From Anaerolinea sp. (GTDB lineage Bacteria > Chloroflexota > Anaerolineae > Anaerolineales > Villigracilaceae): 64,000 nucleotides of DNA. Positions 13,137 to 58,401 of the stretch are shown here, piece by piece. The stretch covers positions 78,711 to 142,710 of the forward strand of contig DYID01000001.1 in NCBI GenBank assembly GCA_020723805.1, read 5' to 3'. Within the stretch, counting starts at the first letter, position 1, and each line of letters starts with the position of its first letter. Under the pieces are notes generated by a model. The model searched no databases. It worked only from the letters and a program-made list of their open reading frames with translations, and had not been told where the DNA came from. Both the position numbers and the translations under genes were made by a program.

Positions 13137-14042
13137 ATGAAAAGAGCCGTCAGCATCAGCATCGGATCGTCCAAACGCAACAAAGCAGTGACGGTGGAAC
13201 TGTTGGGCGAAAAAGTCAGCATCGAACGCATTGGCACCGACGGTGACATGGAAGCCGCCGCCCTGAAATACAAGGAACTCGATGGAACGGTGGATGCCTT
13301 TGGCGTGGGCGGCGCAGACCTGGGCGCCCTGATAGACGGCAAATTCTATCCCTTCCATTCCGTCCAGCCGATGGTGCGCTTCGTGAAGAAGACCCCGCTG
13401 GTGGATGGCGGTGGCTTGAAGAACACACTCGAAAACCGCGCCCCTGCCTTCCTCGATAAAACCATCGGCGATTACATCCGCCAGCGCGGACGCAAAGTCT
13501 TCGTCACCCTCGGCGTGGACCGCTGGGGGCTGTCCAAATCCTTTGTCGAGGCGGGCTACGAGGTTGTGTTTGGCGACCTGATGTTTGCCCTGGGCGTGCC
13601 CATTCCCATCCGCACCATGAACGGACTGCGCACGCTGGCAAAGATCATGATTCCCATCGTCACGCGCTTCCCGTTCGAGTGGCTGTACCCGACCGGCGAA
13701 AAACAGGAGGAGCGCATCCCCAAATATGAAAAATACTATCGCTGGGCAACCGTGATCGCCGGCGATTGTCACTACATCAAACGCCACATGCCGGAAGACA
13801 TGCAGGGCAAGGTGATCGTCACCAACACCACCACGCCCGAAGACGTGGAACTTTTCAGGAAGTGCGGGGTGAAATACCTTGTCACCACCACGCCCGTGCT
13901 GGATGGACGTTCCTTCGGCACCAACATGATGGAAGCCGCGCTGGTGGCAGTCTCAGGCAAGGGACGTCCCCTTACCTGGGCGGAATACGATGAATTGCTC
14001 GACAAACTCGGCTTCGAGCCGCAGTTACAGGAACTCAATTAA
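13137..14042 (+). CDS. Conserved hypothetical (resembles proteins annotated quinate 5-dehydrogenase in Chloroflexota/Deinococcota)
   Basis: 301 aa MKRAVSISIGSSKRNKAVTVELLGEKVSIERIGTDGD...; family assignment from memory only. Confidence 0.6.
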   Translation: MKRAVSISIGSSKRNKAVTVELLGEKVSIERIGTDGDMEAAALKYKELDGTVDAFGVGGADLGALIDGKFYPFHSVQPMVRFVKKTPLVDGGGLKNTLENRAPAFLDKTIGDYIRQRGRKVFVTLGVDRWGLSKSFVEAGYEVVFGDLMFALGVPIPIRTMNGLRTLAKIMIPIVTRFPFEWLYPTGEKQEERIPKYEKYYRWATVIAGDCHYIKRHMPEDMQGKVIVTNTTTPEDVELFRKCGVKYLVTTTPVLDGRSFGTNMMEAALVAVSGKGRPLTWAEYDELLDKLGFEPQLQELN

Positions 14043-14127
14043 CTCACCTTACGCAGTTCCTTTGTAGCGCGACATTTATGTCGCCTGAAAACGCGAGATG
14101 AATCTCGCGCTACCGCGTAACATCAGT
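14041..14127 (+). repeat. Repeat family 1, copy 2
   Basis: CTTACGCAGTTCCTTTGTAGCGCGACATTTATGTCGCCTGAAAACGCGAGATGAATCTCGCGCTACCGCGTAA. Confidence 0.9.
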
Positions 14128-14140
14128 CAATTAATTTAAC

Positions 14141-16153: not shown

Positions 16154-16836
16154 ATCTCCTCCAAAAGCGCCAGAACTTTTTCGACGACACCCTCGCCCGT
16201 TTCTACAAGATGGACGCGAACGCCATAGGGACTCAACTCACGCGCGGCTTGATGCGTGAAGGCAGCCAGCCCGTGCATGGCAGAGACGAACGCCGCTTCC
16301 TTCTCCGCCGATTCCTGATTCAACGTCACGAGGTTGATAATCACCCCCGAGCCTTGACTCCGCATCACGCGTCCCGCCGATTGCGTCATCAAAAACGCGC
16401 CTGTCAGGGTGACATCCAGCGTGCGGTGCCAATCCCACTCGTCCATATCCAGCAGGGGAACGCGCGGTTGGACCGCAGCATGGTTGACCAGCACATCTAT
16501 CCTGCCAAATTCATCCTCCACCTGCTTGATTAAACCCTGCGCTCCCATCTTCTTGGCAACATCTTCCACGAAAGTTTGCGCGCGCCCGCCCTGTTGTTGA
16601 ATCTGAGCGACCACTTCCTCCACATTTATCGGCGAAATATCGTTCGCCGCCACTATCGCGCCGTATTCGGCAAATGCCAGCGCCAGCCTTCGCCCGCTGC
16701 CTTTGCCCGCGCCTGTGATGAGAACCACTTTTCCCGCGAGTCCTTTCCACTTTTTACTTTCCACTTGCCACTCACCACTTTCCTCTTTCATTTTTCCTCT
16801 TTCATTCGTGCGATTCACAAAGCGGAATCCGGTCAC
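16150..16836 (-). CDS. Short-chain dehydrogenase/reductase; true start uncertain
   Basis: GLAGKVVLITGAGKGSGRRLALAFAEYGA Rossmann motif; N-terminal extension MKEESGEWQVESKKWK comes from a 7-bp repeat array. Confidence 0.8.
   Translation of the reverse strand: MTGFRFVNRTNERGKMKEESGEWQVESKKWKGLAGKVVLITGAGKGSGRRLALAFAEYGAIVAANDISPINVEEVVAQIQQQGGRAQTFVEDVAKKMGAQGLIKQVEDEFGRIDVLVNHAAVQPRVPLLDMDEWDWHRTLDVTLTGAFLMTQSAGRVMRSQGSGVIINLVTLNQESAEKEAAFVSAMHGLAAFTHQAARELSPYGVRVHLVETGEGVVEKVLALLEEI
16743..16805. repeat. 7-bp tandem repeat array, CTTTCCA family, overlapping the SDR N-terminus
   Basis: ctttcca cttttta ctttcca cttgcca ctcacca ctttcct ctttcat ttttcct ctttcat. Confidence 0.85.
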
Positions 16837-20384: not shown

Positions 20385-20414
20385 TCGTTGAGCGTCAAGT
20401 GTAAGTAACTAATG

Positions 20415-20485
20415 TTACGCGGTAGGCGAGACTTATCTCGCGTTTTCAGGCGACATAAATGTCGCGGCACGGATAAACTGCGTAA
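20415..20485 (-). repeat. Repeat family 1, copy 3 (inverted orientation)
   Basis: TTACGCGGTAGGCGAGACTTATCTCGCGTTTTCAGGCGACATAAATGTCGCGGCACGGATAAACTGCGTAA. Confidence 0.9.
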
Positions 20486-32487: not shown

Positions 32488-35400
32488 CAAAAATCTTCTT
32501 TCCAAGAAATCATCCTCAAACTCCAATCCTTCTGGGCTTCCCACGGCTGCCTCATCACCCAGCCCTACTACACCCAGGTCGGCGCAGGGACCATGAACCC
32601 CGCCACCTTCCTGCGCGTGCTCGGACCCGAGCCGTGGAACGTCGCCTACGTCGAACCCTCCGTCCGCCCCGACGACGGGCGCTACGGCGAGAACCCCAAC
32701 CGCTTCCAGGTGCATTACCAGTACCAGGTCATCCTCAAGCCCGACCCCGCGTCTCGACCAGGCTCGACGGGCCCGCAGGAACTCTACCTCGACTCGCTCA
32801 AAGCCCTCGGCATTGACCCGCGCAAGCACGACATCCGCTTCGTGGAAGACAACTGGGAACAGCCCGCCATCTCCGCTTGGGGGCTGGGCTGGGAGGTCTG
32901 GCTCGACGGGCAGGAGATCACCCAATTCACCTACTTCCAGCAGATGGGCGGCGTGACTCTCAACCCCGTCTCCGTTGAACTCACCTACGGGCTGGAGCGC
33001 ATCCTCATTGCCCTCAACAACGCCAAAGCCATCTGGGACGAACCCTGGAACGAGCAGGTCACCTACGGGGAGATTCGCCGCCGCGAAGAATTCGAGCATT
33101 CCAAATACTACTTCGAGATTGCCGATGTCGAGCGCGTCCGCCGCATGTACGACCTCTACTCCGCCGAAGCCGACGCCTGCCTCGAGAACGGTCTCATCGT
33201 CCCCGCGCACGACTACGTCCTCAAATGCTCGCACGCCTTCAACATCCTCGACACGCGCGGCGCGGTCAGCGTTGCCGAACGCCAGGCATTCTTCCGCCGT
33301 ATGCGCGAACTCGCCCGCCGCGTGGCAACTTCTTATGAGGAGCAGCGCAAGGAACTGGAATACCCGCTTCTCAAGGAGAGTCAAAAGTCGAAAGTCGAAA
33401 GTCAAGCCAAACCTTCGAACTTCGACCTGCGACCTTCGACTTTCTTGCTGGAAATCGGCACCGAAGAACTCCCCGCCTCCGATGTGGACTCCGCCCGCGA
33501 CCAACTCATCGCCCGCATCCCGCAATTCCTCTCCGACCTCCACCTCGCCCACGGCGACATCCGCATCTTCTCGACCCCGAGGCGGATCGCCGTTTCGATA
33601 GACTCTCTCTCCCCGAAGCAGCCCGACCGCGAAGACCTCGTCAAGGGACCTCCTGCCGATAAGGCTTTCGACAAAAACGGAAACGCGACGCCCGCCGCGC
33701 AGGGCTTCGCCAAAAAGAACGGTGTGGATGTGAAAGACCTCATCGTCCGCGAGGACGCAAGCGCGGCAGGCAAATACGTTTTCGCGGTGGTCAAGCAAAA
33801 GGGACGCCCCGCCCCCGAGGTCCTCGCCGAGGCGCTGCCCAAACTGATTGCCGAAATCAAATTCGAGAAGACCATGCGCTGGAATGACTCAGGCGTCGCC
33901 TTCTCGCGTCCCATCCGCTGGCTGGTGGCGATGTTTGGCGAGGTAGTCATCCCCTTCGGGTACGCGGGCGTGACCAGCGGCAACGTCACGCGCGGACTGC
34001 GTCCCTACGACTCGCCCGAAATCGCCATCCCCTTCGCCGAGAAATACGCTGACCTACTGCGCGAAGCGGGCATCGTTCTTGATAAAGAAGAGCGCAAAGC
34101 CGCCATCGTGGAACAGGTGAAGCAGGCGGCGGCGCTGATCGGCGGCGAAGCCATCATCGAAGAAGACCTGCTCGACGAAGTGGCGAACCTCGTCGAAATG
34201 CCCACCGCCGTCATGGGCGGCTTCGATCAAGAATTTTTATCTCTGCCCAAAGACGTGCTTGTCTCCGTGATGAAAAAGCATCAACGCTATTTCCCCGTTG
34301 CCAAGTCTAACCAATCGCCAATTACCAATTACCAATTACTTCCTTACTTCATCGCCATCCGCAACGGCGACGACCTCCACCTCGACCTCGTCCGTCAAGG
34401 CAACGAACACGTCCTCGGCGCGCGCTTTGCTGACGCGAACTTCTTCGTCCGCGAAGACCTCAAGCACAAACTCGAAGACTTCCGCCCGAAACTGGCAGGT
34501 CTGACCTTCCACACCAAACTCGGCTCCATGCTCGACAAGTCGGAGCGCATGTTGAAACTCGGCGCGGAAGTGGCAGACCTGCTCCACATCAAAGACGCTG
34601 AGACCATCAAAACGCTGGCGCGGGCAATCTACCTCGCCAAAGCCGATTTGGTCACGCAAATGGTGACCGAGATGACCTCCCTGCAAGGCATCATCGGCGG
34701 CGAGTACGCCCTGCGCAGCGGCGAGACCCTCGAAGTGGCGCGGGCGATTGCCGAGCAGTATCAAACCGTGCCGCAGACGAAGGCGGGCTTGGTCGTCGCG
34801 CTCACCGACCGCCTCGACTCGCTTGTTGGGCTGTTTGCCGCGGGGCTGGCTCCCACAGGCGCGAAAGACCCCTTCGGTCTGCGCCGCGCCGCGATTGGCA
34901 TCGTCCAGCCGCTCATCGAACACGACGCCGACTTCGATTTGGCGGAGGCGGTGAAGCGTTCTGCCAAAACCCAGCCCATCGAGGTCACGGAAGAAACGCA
35001 GGCAAAGGTTCTCGAATTCCTCGCCGGGCGTCTGTCTGTCGCGTTGAAAGAGATGGGTTACCGCTACGATGTCGTGGATGCGGTGCTTGCGGAGCAATCC
35101 GCCAACCCGGCCGCGTCGGCTCGGGCGGTGAAGCAGTTACAGGTCTGGGTGGGACGCGAAGATTGGCGCGAGATTCTGCCGGGGTACGCGAGGTGCGTCC
35201 GCATTATCCGCTCGGCTTCAGTGAGCAGTGAGCAGCCTGCCCTGAGCAAAGTCGAAGGGTTATCAGTTATCAGTGAGCAGTTGTTGGCGGAGGCGGAGGA
35301 GAAGCGGTTGTATGAGGCGCTGCAAGGCGTCAACTGCCAGCCGTCCAATGTGGATGAATTTTTAGGGACGGTGGTCAAACTCATCCCGTCCATCAACGCG

Positions 35401-36602: not shown

Positions 36603-36629
36603 TAACGTGAATTCGTGATAAGCGAGCAG

Positions 36630-36682
36630 ACGTTAGAGAACGTCCGCTCTACGCAGGGCGTAAGAGACGCTCTCTAGCGTCG
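36630..36682. repeat. Repeat family 2, locus A: two hairpins with complementary AGAG/CTCT loops
   Basis: GACGTTagagAACGTC ... GACGCTctctAGCGTC. Confidence 0.7.
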
Positions 36683-36805
36683 GGCAAAGCGCTTGATCTT
36701 TATCCCGAACTGACGTTTAATACTTGCAGAATGTGGGATGGGAAGGCGACCCACTTTCTCATCTGCGGACTGGTCTTGTACTAATCCGTTTTATCCTTGA
36801 ACAAA

Positions 36806-43776: not shown

Positions 43777-44187
43777 ATGAGGTCGAGTGTGAGCGAAAAG
43801 CCGAAAATCAACGTCGAAAAGCATATCGCCTATTGGCGCGATGGCGCGTTGGAAGTATGGAAGGATGTGGATCATTCTATGAGCGGCAGGCGGATCGCCT
43901 TTGCATTATTCGCTGCCCACCTTGCTCTTGAAAAGGCGTTGAAGGCGCATGTTGTAAAGCAGACAAAGAATTTGCCTCCCATGATTCACAATTTGATGGC
44001 GCTCGCTAACCTCGCAAACCTAAAACTGCCGTCGAAGTATGCATTGTCTTTGGTCGAATTGAACCCCATGAACATTGTTGCCCGTTATCCCGGTGAAACT
44101 GTAGGGCAGATACCTTCTTTCGAACAGGCTGCAGACATGGTAAAGCGCGCAAAGGAAGTATTGGAATGGTTGATCAAAAAATTGTGA
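43777..44187 (+). CDS. HEPN-domain protein (putative toxin of HEPN/MNT pair)
   Basis: HIAYWRDGALEVWKDVDHSMSGRRIAFALFAAHLALEKALKAHVVKQTKNLPPMIHNLMALA. Confidence 0.85.
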   Translation: MRSSVSEKPKINVEKHIAYWRDGALEVWKDVDHSMSGRRIAFALFAAHLALEKALKAHVVKQTKNLPPMIHNLMALANLANLKLPSKYALSLVELNPMNIVARYPGETVGQIPSFEQAADMVKRAKEVLEWLIKKL

Positions 44188-44495
44188 AATCCGTTCAAAA
44201 ATATCTTGAGTTTGTCAAACGAAAAAGGATCCCTGTCAAATACGGGGTTTTGTTTGGCTCTTATGCGAGAAATCAACAGCATACGTGGAGCGATATTGAT
44301 TTATTGGTTGTCTCGCCGTTGTATGATAAGCGCCGCACTTACAAGGACATGGTGAAATTGTGGCGCATTGCCGCGGAAACGGATGTCCGCATCGAACCAA
44401 TACCGGTTGGCGAAAAGCAATTCGAAGAGGACGATTCAAACTTAATTATCGAAATTGCCCGCCGCGAAGGAAAAATCATTCCTCTCGCAGAATAG
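44166..44495 (+). CDS. MNT-type minimal nucleotidyltransferase (putative antitoxin)
   Basis: YGVLFGSYARNQQHTWSDIDLLVV; overlaps the HEPN ORF. Confidence 0.88.
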   Translation: MVDQKIVKSVQKYLEFVKRKRIPVKYGVLFGSYARNQQHTWSDIDLLVVSPLYDKRRTYKDMVKLWRIAAETDVRIEPIPVGEKQFEEDDSNLIIEIARREGKIIPLAE

Positions 44496-44501
44496 AGACC
44501 T

Positions 44502-45752
44502 ATGGCACATATTCTCTTACGGCATCGGGATATTCCCGACATTCACAAACTCGAAGTCTATAAAAAGAACGGCGGCTTTGCCGCGTTCCAGAACGCGGTC
44601 ACCAGGATGAAGCCCAACGAGGTGACCGAGGTGGTCAAGAACTCCGGCCTGCGCGGACGCGGAGGCGCCGGCTTCCCCACCGGCATGAAGTGGTCGTTCA
44701 TTGACAACAAAAACTGGCCCCATTACGTGGTGGCAAACGCCGACGAATCCGAGCCGGGCACCTTCAAAGACCGCGAAATCATGGAAAGCAACCCCTTCCA
44801 ATTTCTGGAAGGAGTCGCCATTGCCTCCTATGCCGTTGGCGCAAATGCGGCGTATGTGTACCTGCGCGGCGAATTCTGGCAGATTGCCGCCTTCCTCGAT
44901 GAGAAAATCGCGGAGATGGAAGCGGCGGGATACCTCGGCAAAAACCTCTTCGGCACCGATTACTCCCTCAAAATCTACACCCACCTCGGCGCCGGCGCCT
45001 ACATTTGCGGCGAAGAGACCGCCATGCTCGAATCCATCGAAGGCAAACGCGGACAGCCGCGCGTGCGTCCGCCGTTCCCGCCTTCCTACGGTCTCTATGG
45101 CAAGCCCACCATCGTCAACAACGTCGAGACGCTTACCAACGTCCCGCTCATCCTTGCCAACGGCGCGGAGTGGTACAAATCCATGGGCACCGCCGACAGC
45201 GCCGGCGTGAAAATCTTCTCGCTTTCGGGGCGTGTGCGCAAGCCTGGCAACTACGAACTGCCCTTCGGCACGACCTTCCGCGAACTCATCTACACCTACG
45301 GCGGCGGCGTGCAGGATTCCCGCAAGGTCAAAGCCATCATGCCGGCGGGCGCCTCCTCCTCTCTCATTCTGGTGGACGACGAAAAAGTCCTCGACACCCC
45401 GATGGATTACGCCTCCGTCCGCACCCTCGGCGCGGACCTCGGCTCCGCCTCGGTCATCGTCATAGACGACACCGTCTCGATGGACTGGCTCATCAATAAG
45501 ACCGTCCACTTCTTCCGCCATGAATCGTGCGGCAAATGCACTCCCTGCCGCGAAGGCACTTACTGGATGTCGCACCTCACCGAACGCATCCACGAAGGAC
45601 GCGCCACCCGCGCCGATGTGGATTTGCTGTTGAATGTGGCAAAACAAATGCAGGGCAAATGTCTGTGTGCGCTCGGCGAGTTTTCCACCATGGCGGTCGT
45701 GACCGGCATCGAACGCTTCCGGCAGGATTTCGACAAGGTAGTAAAAGCATAA
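44502..45752 (+). CDS. nuoF: NADH-quinone oxidoreductase subunit F
   Basis: GLRGRGGAGFPTGMKWSF...ANADESEPGTFKDREIME...ESCGKCTPCREGTYWM. Confidence 0.97.
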   Translation: MAHILLRHRDIPDIHKLEVYKKNGGFAAFQNAVTRMKPNEVTEVVKNSGLRGRGGAGFPTGMKWSFIDNKNWPHYVVANADESEPGTFKDREIMESNPFQFLEGVAIASYAVGANAAYVYLRGEFWQIAAFLDEKIAEMEAAGYLGKNLFGTDYSLKIYTHLGAGAYICGEETAMLESIEGKRGQPRVRPPFPPSYGLYGKPTIVNNVETLTNVPLILANGAEWYKSMGTADSAGVKIFSLSGRVRKPGNYELPFGTTFRELIYTYGGGVQDSRKVKAIMPAGASSSLILVDDEKVLDTPMDYASVRTLGADLGSASVIVIDDTVSMDWLINKTVHFFRHESCGKCTPCREGTYWMSHLTERIHEGRATRADVDLLLNVAKQMQGKCLCALGEFSTMAVVTGIERFRQDFDKVVKA

Positions 45753-45758
45753 GGTTTT

Positions 45759-45809
45759 GCGTAACGGACGGTCTCTTCCGTCCGCCGTGCCAGAGAGCGC
45801 GGAATACGC
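45759..45809. repeat. Repeat family 2, locus C (nuoF-nuoG junction): two hairpins inside a GCGTA/TACGC stem
   Basis: GCGTAA CGGACGGtctcttCCGTCCG CCGTGCcagagaGCGCGG aaTACGC. Confidence 0.7.
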
Positions 45810-45815
45810 ACAGGA

Positions 45816-48269
45816 ATGTTTATGGCAAAACAAGTCACCTTAACCATTGATGGAAAACAGGTCACCGTCCCCGAAGGGACGCTCGTGGCGGATGCCGCCA
45901 AGATGGCGGGTATAGATATTCCCGTTTTCTGTCATCACCCCAAACTCGAACCGGTCGGCATGTGCCGCATGTGCCTGGTGGAAATCGGGCGCCCTGTGCG
46001 CGACCGCGCCACCGGACAGTTCGTAATGGAAAACGGCGCGCCGAAAATCCAATTCATGCCCAAACTCGAAACCGCCTGCACCAACAAGGTCGAGGAAGGC
46101 ATGGTGGTGTTGACCCGCTCGCAGAAGGCGGTGGAGGGACAGAAAGGCACCATCGAATTTCTGCTCACCTCGCATCCGCTCGACTGCCCCATCTGCGATA
46201 AGGGCGGCGAATGCCCGCTTCAAAACCTGACCGTGGCTTACGGTCCCGGCAAGAGCCGCTTCCTCTACGACGAAAAGATGCACCTCGACAAGCAGGTGCC
46301 GCTGGGCGAACTCATCTGGCTCGACCGCGAACGCTGCATCCAGTGCGCGCGCTGTATCCGCTTTCAGAACGAGATTGCCGGGGACCCGGTCATCGGCTTC
46401 GACGAGCGCGGACGCGCCACCCAAATCGTCTCTTTCTCGGACCCCGGATTTGATTCGGTTTTCTCCGGCAACACCACCGACATCTGCCCGGTCGGCGCGT
46501 TGACCACTTCGGACTTCCGCTTCGGTGCGCGCCCCTGGGAGTTGCAGGCGCACGCTTCCATCTGCACGCAATGTCCCGTCGGCTGCAACACCACACTGAA
46601 CACGCGCCGCGAGGCAAAGTCGGGCGGGCGGATCGTAGTCAAGCGCGTCATGCCGCGCCAGAACGAGGACGTAAACGAAATCTGGATCTGCGACAAGGGA
46701 CGCTTCGCCTATCATTACACGGAAGGGAAGCAGCGCCTGACCCGTCCCATGATCCGCAAGGACGGCAAACTCACACGCGCCTCTTGGGACGCCGCCACCA
46801 AACTCGCCGCCGAAAACTTCCAAAAGGCAAAGAAGAACTTCGTCATTCTGGCTTCGGGCAGGCTCTCCAACGAAGATTTGTTCAACCTGAAATCGCTCGC
46901 CGAACATGCGGACGGCAAGGCTTACATCTATTCACACATGGGCGGCGGCGAACTGACCTCGCTGGTGGGGGTGGGGGAGGGGACGAACTTCGGCAGCATG
47001 GGCGCGGGGACGACGATTGTCGTCGTTGCCTCTGATTTGTATGAAGAGGCGCCCGTCTGGTATCTGCGCATCAAACAGGCGGCGGCGCGCGGCGCAAACC
47101 TGATTGTGATGAACGCCCGCGAAACCAAACTCGATCGCTACGCTTCGTTCACCGTCCGTTATGCCTATGGCGACGAGGTCAAAGCCGTGAGCGACCTCGC
47201 CAAAAAAGGCAAAATCGGCGACACGTTCCTGAAATCGGAGAACGCCGTCATCCTGTATGGCAGCGACGGCTTGGGTGTTTCCGGCTCCGCGGCGCTTGCC
47301 TCCGCCTGCGCCAAACTCCTGCACGATAACGGCTTCACCGGCAGACCTAACAACGGTCTCATCGGCGTGTGGGGGCGCGCCAACGACCAGGGCGCTTGGG
47401 AGATGGGCTTCGAGGTGGAGGAAGACCTGGCGAAGGCGTTCAAGGGCAAGACCGTGTACATTGCCGGCGCCGACCCCGTGGCAGACGACCCGAAACTGGC
47501 AAAGGCGCTCGAAGGTGCGGAGTTCGTTGCCGTACAGGATGTGATGACCACCGCCACCACCGAAATCGCGGATGTCGTCCTGCCGGCGCAGGCGTTCACC
47601 GAACGCGAAGGGACGCTGACTTCAGGAGAGCGGCGGGTGCAGCGCTTTTATCCTGCCGTCCCGGTGACGGGCGAAGCAAAGGCGGATTTTGCCATCACCT
47701 CGCAGATTGCCCGTCACATGGGCATCGTCCTGGAGGGGACGTCGGTCTCGGCGGTGTTCGATATTCTGGCGGCGTCGGTCAAATCGTTCGAAGGCTTGAC
47801 CTATGCCAGACTGGCGGAAGTCCGCCCGCAGTGGCCCATCGTCGGGCGCAGTGACCTGTATTACGGCGGCACGACCTACGAGAACACGCAGGGCATGGGC
47901 GCACAGTTGTCGGCGGCGGCAGGGCGCGGGGAAAAGGTGAGCATCCCCAAGGTCGAGAAAGAAGCGCTTGTCCGTCCCAAGGAGAAGGAATTGCTGGCGG
48001 TGCCGGTCACGAAGTTGTATGACCGCGGCACGACCATCCTGCCTTCGGAGTTGCTGCATGAGCGCATCGGCGAGGCAAAGGTCATCCTGCATCCTGAGAC
48101 GGCGAAGAGCCTGGGCGTGGAGGAAGATCAGAAAGTGAGCGTCAGTTTCAACGGCGTGAATGGCGAAGCGGCGGTGAAATTGACCGACACGATTTCTGTG
48201 GGCGTGGCGCTGATTCCCCGTTCGATGGGGCTGGCGATCCGTGAACCTGTGGCAGTGAAGGTGAAATGA
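45816..48269 (+). CDS. nuoG: NADH-quinone oxidoreductase subunit G
   Basis: VTLTIDGKQVTVPEGTLVADAAKMAGIDIPVFCHHPKLEPVGMCRMCLVEIG; CPICDKGGECPLQNLT. Confidence 0.95.
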   Translation: MFMAKQVTLTIDGKQVTVPEGTLVADAAKMAGIDIPVFCHHPKLEPVGMCRMCLVEIGRPVRDRATGQFVMENGAPKIQFMPKLETACTNKVEEGMVVLTRSQKAVEGQKGTIEFLLTSHPLDCPICDKGGECPLQNLTVAYGPGKSRFLYDEKMHLDKQVPLGELIWLDRERCIQCARCIRFQNEIAGDPVIGFDERGRATQIVSFSDPGFDSVFSGNTTDICPVGALTTSDFRFGARPWELQAHASICTQCPVGCNTTLNTRREAKSGGRIVVKRVMPRQNEDVNEIWICDKGRFAYHYTEGKQRLTRPMIRKDGKLTRASWDAATKLAAENFQKAKKNFVILASGRLSNEDLFNLKSLAEHADGKAYIYSHMGGGELTSLVGVGEGTNFGSMGAGTTIVVVASDLYEEAPVWYLRIKQAAARGANLIVMNARETKLDRYASFTVRYAYGDEVKAVSDLAKKGKIGDTFLKSENAVILYGSDGLGVSGSAALASACAKLLHDNGFTGRPNNGLIGVWGRANDQGAWEMGFEVEEDLAKAFKGKTVYIAGADPVADDPKLAKALEGAEFVAVQDVMTTATTEIADVVLPAQAFTEREGTLTSGERRVQRFYPAVPVTGEAKADFAITSQIARHMGIVLEGTSVSAVFDILAASVKSFEGLTYARLAEVRPQWPIVGRSDLYYGGTTYENTQGMGAQLSAAAGRGEKVSIPKVEKEALVRPKEKELLAVPVTKLYDRGTTILPSELLHERIGEAKVILHPETAKSLGVEEDQKVSVSFNGVNGEAAVKLTDTISVGVALIPRSMGLAIREPVAVKVK

Positions 48270-49390: not shown

Positions 49391-49895
49391 TCCCCTGCTT
49401 GAGTTGCTGCGTGGTCTGGGTACCACGTTCAAGATGGCGCTGGACAAGCCAGTTACGTATCAGTATCCCGAAGAAAAGCGACCGGTGCGCCCGCGTTTTC
49501 GCGGACGCCACGTGCTGAAGCGTTACGAAAACGGGCTGGAAAAGTGCATCGGCTGTTCGCTGTGCGCCGCCGCCTGCCCGGCGGATGCGATCTTCGTGGA
49601 AGCCTCCGAAAACACAGACGAGAAACGCTTCTCACCCGGTGAGCGCTACGCCTCCACCTACGAAATCAACATGCTGCGCTGCATCTACTGCGGCTTCTGC
49701 GAGGACGCCTGCCCGACCGAGGCGATTGTGCTGGGCGATAACTATGAACTCTCCTTCTACGACCGCCGCTCGGCGATTTACACCAAGGAGATGCTGTTGG
49801 AACCCGTCCCCTCGGTGGAGATGACCACGCCGCGCAAGGTGGAGCCGGGCGTCTTCACACGCTCGGTGCCGGAGATGAAGGATCCTCAAGACTAG
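49377..49895 (+). CDS. nuoI: NADH-quinone oxidoreductase subunit I
   Basis: [20 protein letters not shown]...[19 protein letters not shown]. Confidence 0.96.
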
Positions 49896-49966
49896 TGTTC
49901 AGTGTTCAGTGTTCAGTGATCAGTGATCAGTTATCAGTGAGCAGTTATCAGTTAACTGAACACTGG
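49896..49966. repeat. 7-bp tandem repeat array, TCAGTGA family, nuoI-nuoJ junction
   Basis: gtgttca gtgttca gtgttca gtgatca gtgatca gttatca gtgagca gttatca gttaact. Confidence 0.92.
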
Positions 49967-58346: not shown

Positions 58347-58401
58347 GCGTACTCGGCGTTCTCTAACGCCGAACGGACACGTTAGAGAACGTGTCCTATG
58401 C
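58347..58401. repeat. Repeat family 2, locus B: two hairpins inside a GCGTA/TATGC stem
   Basis: GCGTA ct CGGCGTTctctAACGCCG aac GGACACGTTagagAACGTGTCC TATGC. Confidence 0.75.

Follow-up and report, generated by a model that had tools for sequence, protein, structure and literature searches.

The double hairpin that fills the gap between nuoF and nuoG in an Anaerolinea sp. genome is very probably an inverted doublet, of REPIN type, of a REP-like palindromic repeat family tied to a REP-associated tyrosine transposase (RAYT), and probably an immobile remnant. The repeat is a REP/REPIN family of the Anaerolineales (Chloroflexota), known in type and undescribed as a family, and related species carry a transposase of its own. 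The window analysed here is a stretch of 64,000 nt (contig DYID01000001.1, positions 78,711–142,710, forward strand), and the element and its neighbours are placed in it as follows.

44502–45752, plus strand: nuoF, the upstream host gene, outside the repeat, identified by the Pfam domains Complex1_51K, NADH_4Fe-4S and SLBB.
45759–45785, plus strand: half-unit 1, with tag GCGTA, 8 nt, loop TCTCTT and 8 nt; 7-bp stem CGGACGG/CCGTCCG.
45783–45809, minus strand: half-unit 2, inverted, reading GCGTA-TTCCGCGC-TCTCTG-GCACGGCG on that strand.
45812–45815, plus strand: AGGA, the likely Shine–Dalgarno sequence of nuoG, just outside the element.
45822–48269, plus strand: nuoG, the downstream host gene, with its likely start at ATG 45822 (45816 in the ORF list), identified by congeneric homologues and operon position.

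The nuoF stop codon TAA occupies 45750–45752, GCGTAA begins at 45759 and AATACGC ends at 45809 on the plus strand, and the two half-units have 3 nt in common. Read along the plus strand, hairpin CGGACGG-TCTCTT-CCGTCCG is followed by hairpin CCGTGC-CAGAGA-GCGCGG, the latter with one T-G wobble. The predicted RNA fold of 45759–45809 reproduces this three-way layout exactly, with an energy of −31.9 kcal/mol where shuffles average −20.96 kcal/mol (z = −4.05; 0 of 200 shuffles as good). The sequence, coordinates and outer stem with two hairpins described in the initial annotation are thereby confirmed. Its placement of the element exactly between the nuoF stop and the nuoG start holds in that the element lies between both, but the start is very likely ATG 45822 and not the listed 45816, since homologues align from 45822. 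This ATG follows 6 nt after AGGA, which the element abuts.

The repeating unit is a 27-nt half-element consisting of a tag GYGTA (GCGTA or GTGTA), exactly 8 nt, a loop TCTCTN and a pairing 8-nt arm, with the tag 5′ of the hairpin at a fixed distance from the loop. Aligned genome matches resolve the nuoF–nuoG locus into two such units in inverted orientation, and its complementary loops and outer stem follow from that symmetry: in inverted copies the loop TCTCTN meets NAGAGA and the tag GCGTA meets TACGC without further constraint. A first covariation count was set aside as circular because its sequences had been selected for pairing, and it was replaced by selection on sequence only. With only tag and loop as criteria, 29 sites were picked from 458 kb of the window's own genome (G000, a 3.69-Mb MAG, 97% complete); 28 of them carry the hairpin, and the reversed-sequence control gave 2 sites. 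Among the 29 sites, the inner seven pairs are formed in 89% of cases, compared with 68% when the arms were re-dealt and a maximum of 76% in 2000 shuffles. Stem pairing is thus real, whereas stem sequence is nearly free except for a preferred CG step, in agreement with the earlier proposal of a dispersed family with constant tag and loop and divergent stems. Of 60 distinct units, 27 have G directly after GTA and the others C, A or T; lacking a consistent terminal GT[AG]G, the repeat is therefore not filed in the GTAG-tagged REP superfamily.

Copies are numerous in G000. The pattern GCGTA..TCTCT..AGAGA has 31 matches against 1 for the reversed control, and a strict pattern finds 112 GCGTA and 16 GTGTA sites (128 together; 0 for the reversed pattern). 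BLAST of the exact nuoF–nuoG locus against this genome returned partial matches only, because the stems differ. Across the genus, strict sites are patchy (0–189 per genome). Within the sampled stretches of G000, 34 of 59 half-units are without a partner within 70 nt, and the 14 close pairs comprise nine with tags outward, three with tags inward and two in tandem. The nuoF–nuoG copy and most sampled doublets are inverted pairs able to form one larger hairpin, as REPINs are. The window holds two further loci of the family, presumably those called A and B in the initial annotation.

36626–36652, minus strand: half-unit of the second locus, GCGTAGA-GCGGACGT-TCTCTA-ACGTCTGC, its tag two bases further out.
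36658–36684, plus strand: partner half-unit of the second locus, GCGTA-AGAGACGC-TCTCTA-GCGTCGGG, the tags facing inward.
58347–58373, plus strand: half-unit of the third locus, GCGTA-CTCGGCGT-TCTCTA-ACGCCGAA.
58375–58401, minus strand: partner half-unit of the third locus, with tag GCATA, GCATA-GGACACGT-TCTCTA-ACGTGTCC.

The initial annotation had seen a conserved structure in stems that differ while layout and loops persist. The stems do differ, but the layout does not persist, the units at 36626–36684 standing in the opposite relative order. Singletons, inward and tandem pairs and uncompensated loop changes all argue against the paired loops and outer stem as a conserved functional object. 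Copies lacking the paired-loop layout, which the annotation had itself named as evidence against its reading, are found in the 34 unpaired half-units. Covariation across copies, its suggested check, is seen between stem arms but fails between loops: none of five doublets with a core-loop substitution in the G000 sample carries a matching change in the partner loop.

Half-units are largely extragenic: with genes called by a simple home-made caller, coding sequence makes up 87% of the G000 sequence examined, yet 38 of 40 half-units are intergenic. Gaps between co-directional genes account for 63% of the intergenic bases and contain 26 of 29 collapsed elements (P = 0.0013), a bias that may come partly from promoter avoidance. 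The window also contains intergenic short repeats with a 7-nt period (CACTGATCACTGTT, TTTCCACTTTCTACT) at 1686–1808, 49893–49965 and 35214–35282, and at 741–827 and 16722–16815.

Near-identical doublets occur at several loci in G000, and the recent ones examined sit in elements bearing terminal inverted repeats (TIRs). Several lie between inverted ends AGAAAGTGTCTGAAAA / TTTTCAGACACTCTCT or AGAGAGTGTTTTAAA / TTTAAAACACTCTCT, and the congeneric genome G001 has twenty copies of two doublets between ATCAGTA..TCACGAAA / TTTCGTGA..TACTGAT ends. The doublets are found mid-element in these MITE-like carriers (L009, L013, L017, L022, L024, L027 and L038 in G000; L310–L329 in G001), which show at least two or three different TIRs. 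Doublets inside such elements, many of them near-identical, are apparently hitch-hiking, and MITEs rather than RAYT are behind some of the amplification. The nuoF–nuoG copy and its congeneric alleles lack such TIRs. At three G000 loci (L019, L060, L061), the TTAGAGAA loop of half-units is interrupted by a further GC-rich hairpin, CACCTGCC..GGTGCCAGGG, as though the loop served as a target for insertion.

At the nuoF–nuoG junction, the element is present in 5 of 12 congeneric genomes (G000, G001, G004, G007, G012) and absent from the other seven (G002, G003, G005, G006, G009, G010, G011). In most empty alleles nuoF and nuoG overlap or touch, for example as TAATG; AGGA is at the same place in all five filled alleles where several empty ones have TAATG coupling. 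Stems differ among all the filled alleles, two of which carry the tag GCGTA and three GTGTA; G012 has an additional TACGC copy just downstream. Both orientations of the element occur: G004 and G007 have the unit with stem CCGCAC/GTGCGG on the 5′ side, whereas G001 and G012 have it on the 3′ side. On the NuoG tree this takes no fewer than four gains or losses, each of these four being required by branches with good support. The layout that had been taken to belong to this junction is also replaced in the nearest relative found (L143, NuoG 94%), which has an unrelated palindrome, GTAATTGGTAATTCGCGAATTACCAATTAC, there; other genera have further repeats at the same position. A conserved regulatory signal was rejected after this comparison (5 of 12 genomes, both orientations, at least four changes), and nuoF–nuoG is a permissive junction, repeatedly hit or cleared, rather than a conserved control site.

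Between nuoE and nuoF, the window has two overlapping genes at 43777–44495, one for an HEPN protein (PF05168) and one for a nucleotidyltransferase (PF01909), which make up an HEPN-MNT toxin-antitoxin-like pair; nuoE and nuoF are nearly adjacent at this point in several congeneric genomes. A second repeat family in the window has canonical GTAG tags (342–436, 14042–14136 and about 20400–20470), its hairpins GCGACATTTATGTCGC / GCGAGATAAATCTCGC forming inverted pairs, a GTAG-type REP doublet; the nuoF–nuoG gap of L168 holds an element resembling this family. One MAG in the comparison, L151, is labelled Pyrinomonadaceae (Acidobacteriota) and has a NuoG identical to that of the Anaerolineales MAG L150; it is probably a mislabelled or contaminated bin.

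The link to a transposase came from comparing Y1_Tnp genes of relatives with unit positions. A gene for a 178–179-aa protein is flanked by units in G001, G004, G007, G009 and G012, at about 30–200 nt and on both sides in four of the five; in G007 units are on one side only at the threshold used. Up to eleven units cluster in 5.5 kb around the gene. With the NCBIfam model for REP-associated tyrosine transposases, NF047646, the protein reaches 118–120 bits where the cut-off is 80, and it has TnpArep (4er8) as a PDB relative. It carries the marks of a RAYT, namely an HUH motif, a catalytic Tyr with NP(L/V)(R/K)xG and a conserved Thr close to the N-terminus, here as DH[LI]H (DHLH/DHIH), YIH[ML]NPVRAG and an invariant T15, together with a WQ motif. 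An ungapped alignment to the protein of E. coli shows W94, Q95 and E100 unchanged, with Q in place of H101 and F or Y in place of R104; these positions are among those named as contacting GTAG (PMC6006769), and the changes at H101 and R104 are in keeping with a different tag.

Two RAYT clades, about 70% identical, were distinguished. Flanking units carry GCGTA in G001, G007 and G009 and GTGTA in G004 and G012. Genome-wide, GTGTA accounts for 7 of 11 sites in G004, 30 of 63 in G012 and 24 of 68 in G009, as against 15 of 110 in G007 and 11 of 189 in G001; the tag thus tends to go with the RAYT clade. G009 and G007 have RAYTs that are 94% identical although the NuoG tree puts these two genomes far apart, which suggests horizontal transfer. 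The cognate RAYT gave no match at E ≤ 1e-10 in the G000 assembly, so the nuoF–nuoG copy is probably an immobile remnant, and none was found in the assemblies of G014 and G019, with more than 100 strict sites each. With three genomes holding more than 100 sites and no RAYT, copy number is not simply tied to RAYT presence; the mismatch could reflect loss of the gene once amplification had taken place, gaps in the assemblies or some other route of spread. The seven Y1_Tnp genes of G000 were considered as mobilisers and rejected, none having a unit nearby.

Experiments on TnpAREP enzymes show strand-specific recognition of single-stranded hairpins through the tag and, for some systems, through the loop as well (PMC8266576). 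By analogy, the RAYT would bind the unit as folded single-stranded DNA, read tag and loop while tolerating any paired stem, and cut next to the unit, moving copies in trans. Such recognition would explain why tag, loop, spacing and pairing are kept and stem sequence is free. The repeat has the features of a REP in the broad sense: a short palindrome (about 20–40 nt), extragenic and in high copy, with a 5′ tag and a flanked RAYT gene in some hosts. A cognate RAYT in the same genome does not define a repeat copy, though it bears on whether the copy can move at present. Against this explanation stand the non-canonical tag and the lack of an established target-site signature for the bare doublet. 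The nuoF–nuoG copy is most likely tolerated rather than used, probably because nuoG has its own AGGA just downstream.

Three other origins were weighed against a RAYT-associated repeat. The stable predicted fold and complementary loops, an element abutting AGGA 6 nt before the nuoG ATG, enrichment in co-directional and probably co-transcribed gaps, and AGGA in filled alleles where several empty ones have TAATG coupling would all suit a cis-acting RNA in the nuo mRNA, whose outer stem and kissing-loop hairpins control nuoG translation or segmental mRNA stability. A nuo-specific signal is hard to reconcile with more than 100 copies genome-wide, over half of the sampled units unpaired, or with absence from this junction in 7 of 12 congeners and occurrence in both orientations; loop changes within doublets are uncompensated, and non-Watson–Crick positions on the tag strand of strong hairpins show no excess of G-T over A-C (2 versus 5). 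Rfam contains no family at the nuoF–nuoG element, which also counts against an RNA, its one sub-threshold match (19 bits; gathering score 45) lying inside nuoG on the other strand. We regard a cis-acting RNA as the least probable of the three. A related possibility, to which we give scarcely more credence, is domestication of the repeat in operon gaps: between co-directional genes a structured spacer with a new ribosome-binding site would replace TAATG coupling, and kissing-loop doublets made by RAYT would reset the nuoF:nuoG ratio between sister species.

The near-identical doublets between inverted ends in G000 and G001 would instead fit a TIR-bearing MITE family, mobilised by a DDE-type transposase, of which the repeat is the core and the hairpins are passive internal sequence. 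That origin is unlikely, if the least so of those considered here, given that the nuoF–nuoG copy and its congeneric alleles are without such ends, that different MITEs carry the same core unit, that units flank RAYT genes and that singletons exist; more likely, MITEs picked up the repeat. Template-switch correction perfects inverted repeats, and stems that differ widely with pairing kept could on that basis reflect mutation bias (quasipalindrome template switching) and not recognition. This would leave the conserved tag, the loop, the fixed 8-nt spacing and the RAYT association unexplained, and as the reason why the stems stay paired we hold it improbable, though template-switch correction may still contribute to pairing.

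Read as a RAYT-associated repeat, the conspicuous double hairpin within the operon of a respiratory complex is explained as selfish repeated DNA, and it cautions that paired complementary loops need not mean RNA function when inverted duplication yields them. The Anaerolineales thereby gain a REP/RAYT system whose tag is non-canonical, whose spacing is fixed and whose stems are almost unconstrained in sequence. The leaning of GCGTA and GTGTA to two RAYT clades offers a natural experiment on target recognition by a single-strand transposase, and the nuoF–nuoG junction provides filled and empty alleles in close relatives.

The family shares much with the REP/REPIN (BIME) systems of E. coli, Pseudomonas and Stenotrophomonas: short, tagged, extragenic palindromes in high copy that occur singly or as inverted pairs and flank a RAYT gene, with tag and loop conserved on one strand (PMC2817692, PMC3116915, PMC6006769, PMC8266576). 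It differs in having GYGTA plus a variable base instead of GT[AG]G, a conserved TCTCT with an almost free stem, and no cognate RAYT in the window's own genome. The 24 GTAG- and 4 CGTC-tagged families have the same architecture of singletons and dimers of opposite orientations (PMC3733652), but neither tag fits GYGTA. GTAG repeats have been reported in Chloroflexi (PMC3733652); the words GCGTA and TCTCT are absent from the main text of that paper, and our literature search found no repeat family with a GYGTA tag or TCTCT loop. Relative to IS200/IS605 ends, the Y1 HUH enzyme fold family and a hairpin with a 5′ guide sequence are common features, whereas here units are dispersed away from the transposase and paired in inverted orientation, and the RAYT scores 22–27 bits, under the IS200 equivalog cut-off of 55. 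RAYT subclass 2.6 and class 3 are known to have repeats other than GT[AG]G. RAYT group 5 (TnpAY1 subclass 2.6), mainly from Bacteroidetes, is flanked by atypical structures without GT[AG]G (PMC6006769), and the Anaerolineales enzyme resembles it, by motif and length alone, in size (178–179 versus 179 aa), WQ, YIHxNP and non-canonical flanking repeats, while differing in DH[LI]H for NH[LIV]H, YIH[ML]NP for YIH[QN]NP and a Chloroflexota host.
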